DNA from: a virus
Strand: one strand, 5' to 3'
Virus record (IMG/VR): IMGVR_UViG_3300010392_000413
Span: 1 to 32,838 of that record
DNA length: 32,838 bases
The notes below the pieces were generated by a model, which saw only the letters and a program-made list of their open reading frames with translations, did not search any database and was not told the DNA's origin. This document shows positions 28,004 to 29,393 of the stretch, piece by piece. The first letter of the stretch is position 1, and each line of letters opens with the position of its first letter. The translations under genes were made by a program, and so were the position numbers.

Positions 28004-28238
28004 AGAGAAGCTAGAAGATTTGAGAGAGATGATCGACGTGGCTACAGATACTCTAGAAAGGTTAGAGGAATCAGGACTGCCAGCTAATCTGGCAGCAGGG
28101 TCACTGGCCATCGCTATCGGAATTTTGGTAGAGAATGTGGGTGAGGCTCAGGAGTTAGTGAGGACCGCCCACAATGAAGTTAACGCAATCCTAGCTGAAG
28201 CTAAAAAAGACGACGAAAAGAAGGAGATGATGAATTGA
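27993..28238 (+). CDS. Small helical acidic protein (81 aa)
   Basis: I chose the ATG at 27993 (MTDEEKLEDLREMIDVATD), with GGAG about 9 bases upstream; it overlaps the lipoprotein stop by 11 bases. The protein is a heptad-like helix with a small hydrophobic middle (ANLAAGSLAIAIGILVENVG) and a Lys/Glu/Asp tail. The TGA overlaps the TTG start of the next gene. No family is recognised. Confidence 0.55.
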   Translation: MTDEEKLEDLREMIDVATDTLERLEESGLPANLAAGSLAIAIGILVENVGEAQELVRTAHNEVNAILAEAKKDDEKKEMMN

Positions 28239-28966
28239 GCAAACTGAACCAGATCATCGCAGTTGAGAAGAGTGTTAAGAGTGAGGCTCACAAGAGTGCC
28301 TCTACCGTTTACAAGCAGGTACAGAAGCCAGCCTTATTTGATGGCTTCGTAAAGAATTGGCGTCCTTCTGAGGACAGTGGTGAAGAACGACCCCCAGAAT
28401 CTAAACGGGTCCAGATCAGAGCACAAGAGGCTCTGGATCTCCTACGAGAGAGTTTCTCGGAACTAATCGACATCACTGCCCAGAAGGACTATGCTAACTG
28501 TGGAGCTACTGCTGACGTTGTTGTTGCTGGTCGTACCATCGTTGCTGGGGCACCTGTCACTTACCTTCTATTCCTGGAGAAGTACCTCATTGACATCCGA
28601 GCCTTCCTCTCCCATCTCCCAGTCCTATCCGAGGATGAGAAGTGGGAGCTTCGAGAGGCTACCGGATTGTATGAGAGTGAGCCTCTAACCACTCAGAGTA
28701 CTAAGAAGGTACAGAAGCCGATCGTCCTTTACGATGCAACGGAGAGGCACCCGGCGCAGACTCAGTTGGTTAGCCAGGATGTCATTGTTGGACACTGGGA
28801 GACGATCAAGCAGAGTGGGGCTATGTCCCGGGATCAGAAGAAGCTCTACCTTACTAGGGTAGATACACTGTTGAAGGCAGTTAAGTTTGCCAGAGAGGAA
28901 GCAAATGCAGTAGATGCACCGAAGATCAACGTCAGTGACGAGGTCTTCAACTATCTACTGGGATAG
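28235..28966 (+). CDS. DUF7873-like conserved protein (243 aa)
   Basis: The TTG start overlaps the previous TGA and is preceded by AAGGAG. The pattern MSKLNQIIAVEKSVKSEAHK, VQKPALFDGFVKNWRP, DITAQKDYANCGATADVVV, VTYLLFLEKYLIDIRAFL and DATERHPAQTQLV is one I associate with a protein found widely in actinobacteria and phages and named only as a domain of unknown function. It has a long helical middle and no catalytic motif I can name. It precedes the RNA island and may be of early or middle class. Confidence 0.7.
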   Translation: MSKLNQIIAVEKSVKSEAHKSASTVYKQVQKPALFDGFVKNWRPSEDSGEERPPESKRVQIRAQEALDLLRESFSELIDITAQKDYANCGATADVVVAGRTIVAGAPVTYLLFLEKYLIDIRAFLSHLPVLSEDEKWELREATGLYESEPLTTQSTKKVQKPIVLYDATERHPAQTQLVSQDVIVGHWETIKQSGAMSRDQKKLYLTRVDTLLKAVKFAREEANAVDAPKINVSDEVFNYLLG

Positions 28967-29057
28967 ATTTGAGGCAAGTTCAGGCTTAGGCTTAAACTTA
29001 GAAGAGAGCAATCTGAAGCTTTCCTCACAAGTTTAGACTTATCTGAGAGAGTCGCCT
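28967..29057 (+). other. Non-coding segment before the RNA island
   Basis: The segment has a stem TAAACTT/AAGTTTA (28993-28999 with 29029-29035) and further short complementarities. It may be part of the transcript of the permuted tRNA. I looked for group I intron core elements here and found only weak resemblance. Confidence 0.35.
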
Positions 29058-29164
29058 TCGATTTACTCAAGCCTTAGAGATACGGGTTCGATTCCCGTGA
29101 GTCCCTCCACGTATGGGACTCTGGTCAAATGGCAAGACGCTAACGTTAACGTAAAGTAGATCGA
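29058..29164 (+). tRNA. Circularly permuted tRNA-like gene (isotype uncertain)
   Basis: The 3' half comes first: TTAG (29074-29077), a T arm ACGGG-TTCGATT-CCCGT (29082-29098), acceptor strand GAGTCCC (29099-29105), U73 and encoded CCA (29107-29109). After CGTAT the 5' half follows: acceptor GGGACTC (29115-29121), a perfect 7-bp match, T8, a D arm GTC/GAC with A14, G18-G19 and A21 in place, and CTAA (29140-29143), which pairs with TTAG. The helix continues outward (GTT/AGC, a 3x3 loop, GTAAA/TTTAC, TCGA/TCGA) instead of closing in an anticodon loop. Joining within the 3x3 loop would give GTTAAGC, with a UAA anticodon. No conventional tRNA can be built from either half. Confidence 0.6.
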
Positions 29165-29185
29165 GAAAGACAATCTCACAAGCAT

Positions 29186-29260
29186 ACGTTTGTAGATCAG
29201 CTCGGTTAGATCGCAAGACTTTTAATCTTGATGTCGTAGGTTCAAATCCTACCAAACATG
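29186..29260 (+). tRNA. tRNA-Lys (anticodon UUU)
   Basis: D stem GATC/GATC with loop AGCTCGGTTA, anticodon stem CAAGA/TCTTG with loop CTTTTAA (anticodon at 29221-29223), variable region ATGTC and T arm GTAGG-TTCAAAT-CCTAC are all canonical. The acceptor ACGTTTG/CAAACAT has a C2-A71 mismatch, and position 73 is G rather than the usual A. No CCA is encoded, unlike both neighbouring RNAs. Confidence 0.8.
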
Positions 29261-29274
29261 AACATGCCATAGAG

Positions 29275-29300
29275 GGTGCCCGCAAGGATAGGCGGGTACC
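29275..29300 (+). promoter_or_regulatory. Hairpin between tRNA-Lys and tmRNA-like RNA
   Basis: GGTGCCCGC (29275-29283) pairs with GCGGGTACC (29292-29300), 9 bp with one G-U and an 8-base loop. It is not followed by a U tract. It may separate the two RNAs in the primary transcript or guide processing. Confidence 0.5.
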
Positions 29301-29308
29301 TTCGCCAA

Positions 29309-29393
29309 GGGGACGGTGATAGGTATCGACAGGGTAGAGAGCCTCCAGTAGGAACTATTCTGGACCTCGGTTCGACTCCGAGCGTCTCCACCA
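29309..29393 (+). ncRNA. Minimal tmRNA-like RNA (tRNA-like domain only)
   Basis: The acceptor GGGGACG (29309-29315) pairs with CGTCTCC (29383-29389), with a G3-U70 pair, A73 and encoded CCA: the alanine identity set shared by tRNA-Ala and tmRNA. GGTATCGACAGGG matches the tmRNA D-region rather than a tRNA D arm. TGGAC then the T arm CTCGG-TTCGACT-CCGAG is the usual tmRNA 3' end. Between them a hairpin (TCCAGTAG with CTATTCTGGA, GAA loop) takes the place of helix 2. No tag frame or pseudoknots are present, giving 85 bases instead of about 350. Confidence 0.7.

Follow-up and report, generated by a model that had tools for sequence, protein, structure and literature searches.

A permuted tRNA-like head on a predicted noncoding RNA linked to DUF7873 genes in phages and bacteria

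Introduction

Y RNAs reportedly lie near Ro60 genes in bacteria and phages, as is said of the primary Y RNA survey by Chen et al. 2014. In its crystal structure, a Y RNA can be superposed on tRNA, of which it is a circular permutation (PMC11472068). In the bacterial Y RNA YrlA (Rfam RF02553; PDB 6CU1), a basal stem bears a tRNA-like domain. Enzymes that modify tRNA also act on YrlA, which serves as a tether between Rsr and PNPase; its known partners are PNPase and the tRNA-modifying enzymes (PMC8394870).

Two other described systems share this order of parts. In circularly permuted tRNA genes, such as those of Cyanidioschyzon merolae and some archaea, the 3' half precedes the 5' half, and the acceptor strands are complementary across a short spacer. 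The literature that we found on such genes concerns algae and archaea, with no phage case in its titles or abstracts. The two-piece (permuted) tmRNA (RF04321) likewise has a T arm, an acceptor strand, CCA, and the acceptor complement in that order.

Here we analyze IMG/VR virus record IMGVR_UViG_3300010392_000413, whose whole 32,838-nt stretch is called the window below. An initial annotation had proposed that it contains a circularly permuted tRNA gene of a phage.

Results

A permuted tRNA-like core in the window

Read 5' to 3', the core consists of a T arm, the acceptor 3' strand, UCCA, a 5-nt loop, the acceptor 5' strand, U8, and a D arm (Table 1). By direct reading of the sequence, the T arm is ACGGG TTCGATT CCCGT (29082-29098), and it is followed by the acceptor 3' strand GAGTCCC (29099-29105) and by T73 with an encoded CCA (29106-29109). 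Five bases (CGTAT) separate this CCA from the exact complement GGGACTC (29115-29121), after which come T8 (29122) and a 3-bp D stem, GTC/GAC (29124-29126/29136-29138), whose loop contains GG and several A residues. The permuted order described in the initial annotation, including G18-G19 in the D arm and the outer strands CTAA and TTAG, is thus present in full between 29074 and 29143. The window sequence has no normal 5' tRNA half upstream of the T arm. A reading of the element as two neighboring normal tRNA halves was rejected on this ground and from covariation in the permuted order (below).

When the window was analyzed with ARAGORN, only a tRNA-Lys (29185-29261) was called, and the permuted element was left uncalled. 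We used a detector of our own that requires a T arm, an acceptor strand, a spacer, the exact complement, and a D arm; it was designed after the window had been seen, and its matches in other sequences are independent of the window. In the window the detector found a single match, on the plus strand; the minus strand gave none, nor did 6.4 Mb of dinucleotide-preserving shuffled sequence. The permuted arrangement is real and lies far beyond chance. A normal tRNA-Lys does follow the D arm at a distance of ∼45 bases, and these loci often contain tRNA clusters, as might be expected of a chance resemblance or of degenerate tRNA halves in such a cluster. However, the lack of matches in the shuffled sequence and the conservation and covariation seen in more than 100 loci leave that explanation a negligible probability.

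Table 1. Positions of the features discussed in the text, numbered from the first base of the window
Feature	Position	Strand	Evidence
DUF7873 protein gene, 243 aa, TTG start	28235-28966	+	PF25283, E = 3.9e-92; constant neighbor of the RNA
Probable extent of the noncoding RNA	28967-29302	+	17 full-length relatives, aligned and folded as a consensus
Leader and linker motifs	28976-29047	+	Sequence, relatives, fold
Basal stem of the module: P1 (29044-29048/29174-29178) and P2 (29057-29067/29155-29165) with an internal loop between them	29044-29178	+	Window fold; covariation in relatives
4-bp "anticodon" stem, TTAG (29074-29077)/CTAA (29140-29143)	29074-29143	+	Sequence; connects core and internal loop
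Permuted tRNA-like core, module B type	29082-29138	+	Sequence, detector, covariance model R1
3' hairpin, GGGTGCCCGC-AAGGATA-GGCGGGTACC	29274-29300	+	Consensus fold columns 559-589; window fold

The arrangement recurs beside DUF7873 genes in phages and bacteria

The gene adjacent to the RNA encodes a clear member of Pfam family PF25283 (308.8 bits; cut-off 27), a family without an assigned function. Its AlphaFold2 prediction has a mean pLDDT of 90. A fold search with this protein returned nothing at E ≤ 1e-3 among PDB or viral entries, sequence searches gave no convincing PDB match and no NCBIfam match above its cut-off, and a literature search found no paper naming DUF7873.

Fifty viral contigs were retrieved via the DUF7873 protein. 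Nearly all of them contained the permuted arrangement just downstream of DUF7873, usually two in tandem, and the acceptor stems of these modules were quite different in sequence. Over 641 kb, made up of the window and 62 related sequences, the detector returned 102 matches, all on the plus strand and distributed over 56 of the 63 sequences; 85 of the 102 had no normal 5' half nearby. In most relatives, two heads stand in tandem within one RNA of ∼400 nt. Cultured phages of Gordonia (for example GodonK), Arthrobacter (for example Racecar), Rhodococcus, Rhizobium, Klebsiella, Vibrio, and Pseudanabaena had the same arrangement, and their records leave the RNA stretch mostly without annotation. 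A DNA similarity search in phages returned mostly other tRNAs, and a search of the viral contigs with the pattern GTGAGTCCCTCCA..GGGACTC gave a single match (L052, 1350-1370), which had no T or D arm and was set aside as chance.

The pairing of the core is maintained despite this divergence in sequence. Acceptor stems were fully paired in 84 of 85 non-redundant modules, compared with 1.6-2.0% when partners were swapped between loci. With 34 second modules aligned, standard pairs made up 98.5% of the three core helices (64% when shuffled), double-changed cells numbered 183 (48 when shuffled), and pairing fell to 35-53% in slid controls. The compensatory change in relatives that the initial annotation had suggested looking for was therefore found, with the parts in the same order, in a comparison that covered well over a hundred related loci.

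A covariance model, R1, was built from the 34 second modules with the window left out. It matched the window at 29043-29170 (47.7 bits, E = 9.6e-11) and all 26 of the phage records tested. In several large phages (G003, G005, G015, and W06), extra matches to the permuted core were also observed away from DUF7873, for example at G003:109460, G003:120354, and G005:253897, 257887, and 265450.

DUF7873 is also chromosomal in many species, with at least 565 confirmed stretches. The RNA was found just downstream of the gene in 79 of 80 retrieved chromosomal loci (from Streptomyces, Myxococcota, Chloroflexota, and others), and no other neighbor gene common across groups was found at the chromosomal DUF7873 loci. 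Among the phage records, one (L016) has the RNA ∼8 kb from the DUF7873 gene. These comparisons establish a near-constant linkage of the predicted RNA to DUF7873 in both phages and bacterial chromosomes.

The core is carried on a two-helix basal stem

In the minimum-free-energy fold of the window element (z = -3.3), the core is followed outward by the 4-bp stem, a 6 x 11-nt internal loop, the 11-bp helix P2 (UUCGAUUUACU/AGUAGAUCGAG), and the helix P1 (UGAGA/UCUCA). The flanks had been proposed to pair as GTAAA/TTTAC and TCGA/TCGA; P2 and then P1 pair better, both in this fold and by compensatory change in relatives. In the relatives, 90.6% of P1 and P2 cells are paired (64% when shuffled), with 84 double changes (26 when shuffled), and the internal loop between the two helices is conserved as AUCGACC opposite CUUAAACG.

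The RNA as a whole probably extends well beyond this module, and the fold of 28967-29305 has a z of -5.6. The leader and linker contain purine/pyrimidine 6-mer repeats (AAGTTC AGGCTT AGGCTT AAACTT, and AAGTTT AGACTT ATCTGAG). A short hairpin at 29004-29023 occupies the place of the tRNA-like module A of the relatives, so that the window has a one-module form of the RNA, with the tRNA-Lys inside its span. Module A is replaced by a short hairpin in L009, L037, L043, and others as well. Since the leader, linker, and second module are retained when the first module is replaced, all of them are most likely parts of a single molecule. The 3' hairpin of the window has a GGATA-type loop, as does the hairpin at the end of the RNA in relatives. 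From the aligned sequences, we conclude that the predicted RNA places a permuted core on a stem of two helices and a conserved internal loop, which is the layout of YrlA, and that it bears one or two such heads.

Two further observations concern this region. The repeats of the leader (28976-29002) and linker (29029-29047) have a 6-nt periodicity (three purines, two pyrimidines, any base) in which the pattern but not the letters is kept from phages to Streptomyces, and they may be a protein-binding repeat; a translated leader peptide (K-L-K-L-like codons) was considered and rejected, as start and frame were inconsistent by eye. The tRNA-Lys, which has the anticodon UUU and is normal, sits between the basal stem and the 3' hairpin, and L037, L045, and L062 seem to carry a tRNA, apparently also Lys, at the same place.

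The sequence data do not support a permuted tRNA gene

If the element were a permuted tRNA gene like those of Cyanidioschyzon and some archaea, the anticodon loop would be the site at which its transcript circularizes, the acceptor end would be opened by RNase P and 3' trimming, and a functional Leu-UAA tRNA would result. Several properties fit this proposal: the order of parts is exactly that of a permuted gene, CCA is encoded in the window, the T and D loops are conserved, the Y-R-U|G that precedes the acceptor 5' strand is reminiscent of a tRNA leader, and ARAGORN accepts the joined sequence. However, when the window halves were joined arbitrarily, ARAGORN also accepted 238 of 296 joins, which had a wide range of anticodons. 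Because arbitrary joins pass as readily, the Leu(UAA) call for the join proposed in the initial annotation is no evidence for that anticodon.

The relatives argue against a joined product as well. The putative U33 is T in only 7 of 40 first modules and 19 of 45 second modules, and CCA is encoded in only 39 of 85 modules. The U73 that had seemed odd for tRNA-Leu turned out to be the rule in second modules (30 of 45), and A73 is found in 32 of 40 first modules. Unlike known permuted tRNA genes, the phage RNA has no anticodon loop and no bulge-helix-bulge at the junction, where the 6 x 11-nt internal loop lies instead; its stem runs on beyond the "anticodon" stem, and both the junction loop and the covarying helices beyond it (P2 and P1) are conserved. 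One of the modules is often missing. Splicing enzymes were not found, and the RtcB ligase occurs in only 1 of 22 such phage records. Finally, the Rfam model of YrlA, a tRNA mimic of the same topology, aligns with the element end to end. Based on these results, a permuted tRNA gene is not supported and we regard it as very improbable; what stands of the original proposal is a permuted tRNA fold in a virus record, and not a gene for a joined tRNA.

The RNA resembles YrlA but is not linked to rsr

YrlA was the best informative Rfam match across the window and its relatives, and no Rfam match was obtained to a group I or II intron, a permuted form of which had been considered. The window matches YrlA over its full length, but weakly (20.1 bits, E = 0.05). 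The score is 38.2 bits (E = 6e-7) in Gordonia phage GodonK and 29-39 bits, up to 39.2, in relatives including chromosomal ones, all below the gathering score of 69. Like YrlA, the DUF7873-linked RNA has a T arm, a closed acceptor stem, and a D arm in one permuted module, and the module stands on a basal stem made up of two helices and an asymmetric internal loop. It differs from YrlA in its linkage to DUF7873 rather than to rsr, in its greater length and usually two heads, in its long linker with purine/pyrimidine repeats, and in its 3' hairpin with a GGAUA-type loop; known Y RNAs have neither two heads nor the long linker.

One possibility is that this is a bona fide Y RNA, bound by a phage or host Rsr (Ro60), with DUF7873 as an accessory protein of that particle. 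Besides the YrlA layout and the Rfam matches, this would agree with the finding that R1 also recognizes the RNAs beside TROVE (Rsr) genes, which score 32-59 bits with YrlA and so also fall below 69. In this connection, RNAs with a permuted core were seen to adjoin TROVE genes in L154, L155, L157, and L164-L167; several of the TROVE proteins there are divergent, of ∼545 aa, with a Pfam match only around positions 289-351.

The distribution of TROVE genes bears on the same possibility in two ways. TROVE was found in 8 of 13 bacterial hosts, unlinked to the RNA. In samples of three phyla, it was present in 5 of 6, 5 of 10, and 6 of 16 genomes with DUF7873, compared with 4 of 240, 8 of 179, and 6 of 235 genomes without it. 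This enrichment (Fisher p = 1e-7, 1e-4, and 2e-5; 2e-6, 1e-3, and 1e-4 with the seed genomes dropped) is confounded by phylogeny and genome size, neither of which enters the p values, so that these are an indication only. Deinobacterium chartae was the only member of the control set in which both families occurred. Within these samples, predicted Ro60/TROVE genes, unlinked to the RNA, are over-represented in bacteria with DUF7873. However, TROVE occurred in 4 of 22 phage records and never adjacent to the RNA, and 2 of these 4 records have a separate YrlA-like RNA near the TROVE gene. Moreover, 10 of the 16 Chloroflexota genomes with DUF7873 had no TROVE match, a count in which divergent TROVE proteins may be missed. 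We consider a bona fide Y RNA somewhat unlikely, and the RNA is not classed here as a YrlA member because it scores below the Rfam threshold and is not linked to rsr. We conclude that the DUF7873-linked RNA contains a Y-RNA-like, tRNA-mimicking module, and we do not claim that it is a true Y RNA.

Possible processing at the acceptor tips

The last bases of the tip loop, ahead of G+1 of the acceptor 5' strand, are Y-R-U in both module A and module B, with U at -1 in 47 of 85 modules. This Y-R-U resembles an RNase P leader, and to judge from the sequence, cleavage at the acceptor tip to give a multi-piece RNA is possible. RNase P and 3' processing would then nick the acceptor tips, leaving two or three pieces held together by the tRNA-like cores, as in two-piece tmRNA. 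The shared order of parts, the preference for U(-1) and G(+1), the discriminator preferences of first and second modules given above, and a CCA encoded in about half of the modules are in keeping with such a product. In contrast to permuted tmRNA, though, the phage RNA has a D stem and lacks a tag reading frame and SmpB-type features; tip loops of only 6-10 nt are common, and RF04321 scores 12.3 bits in the window against a gathering score of 47. As a full account of the RNA this is improbable, but multi-piece processing is compatible, as a step, with the explanation that we prefer, a structured noncoding RNA downstream of DUF7873.

A separate tmRNA-like element was noticed downstream of the RNA, at 29309-29393. 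This tag-less "mini-tmRNA" has both tmRNA ends (GGGGACGG..GGTATCGACAGGG and ..GGACCTCGGTTCGACTCCGAGCGTCTCCACCA) and lacks ∼300 model positions; it exceeds the gathering score of RF00023 (62.9 bits, E = 1.8e-22; gathering score 47), and its fold is no better than that of shuffled sequences. A search of the viral contigs with the tag-less tmRNA pattern gave no match, and in phages a 28-base match to the T arm was all that was found.

Discussion

On the evidence above, 29043-29178 is likely to form the tRNA-like head and the basal stem of a noncoding RNA whose gene directly follows that of DUF7873. This RNA is likely also to be Y-RNA-like and, by inference, to act as a scaffold. The longer RNA that carries the head is apparently undescribed.

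In the mechanism that we propose, the RNA would persist as a stable scaffold and would at no stage be joined into a tRNA. Its tRNA-like heads would dock a host factor that recognizes tRNA or structured RNA, and its stem and purine/pyrimidine repeats would bind DUF7873 and possibly also a Ro60-type ring protein. A phage might use such an RNA to redirect or block a host machine for RNA processing or RNA decay. More broadly, and with confidence a little short of even, we suggest that DUF7873 and the one- or two-headed RNA form an undescribed, horizontally spread ribonucleoprotein of phages and bacteria, which would capture a tRNA-processing or RNA-decay machine through permuted-tRNA mimicry; it would act alongside Ro60 without being a Y RNA, and its RNA may be cut by RNase P.

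Such a particle would extend Y-type tRNA mimicry beyond Ro60-linked loci to a separate and widespread RNA-protein pair, one that spans phages with widely differing hosts (Gordonia, Arthrobacter, Rhodococcus, Rhizobium, Klebsiella, Vibrio, and cyanobacteria) and bacterial chromosomes, including those of Streptomyces, which is readily handled in the laboratory. The present reading also explains how a permuted "tRNA gene" comes to be read into a phage genome. For DUF7873, an uncharacterized family, the RNA is a candidate partner, and it would become directly testable which factors bacterial Y-type RNAs recruit through their tRNA-like head.
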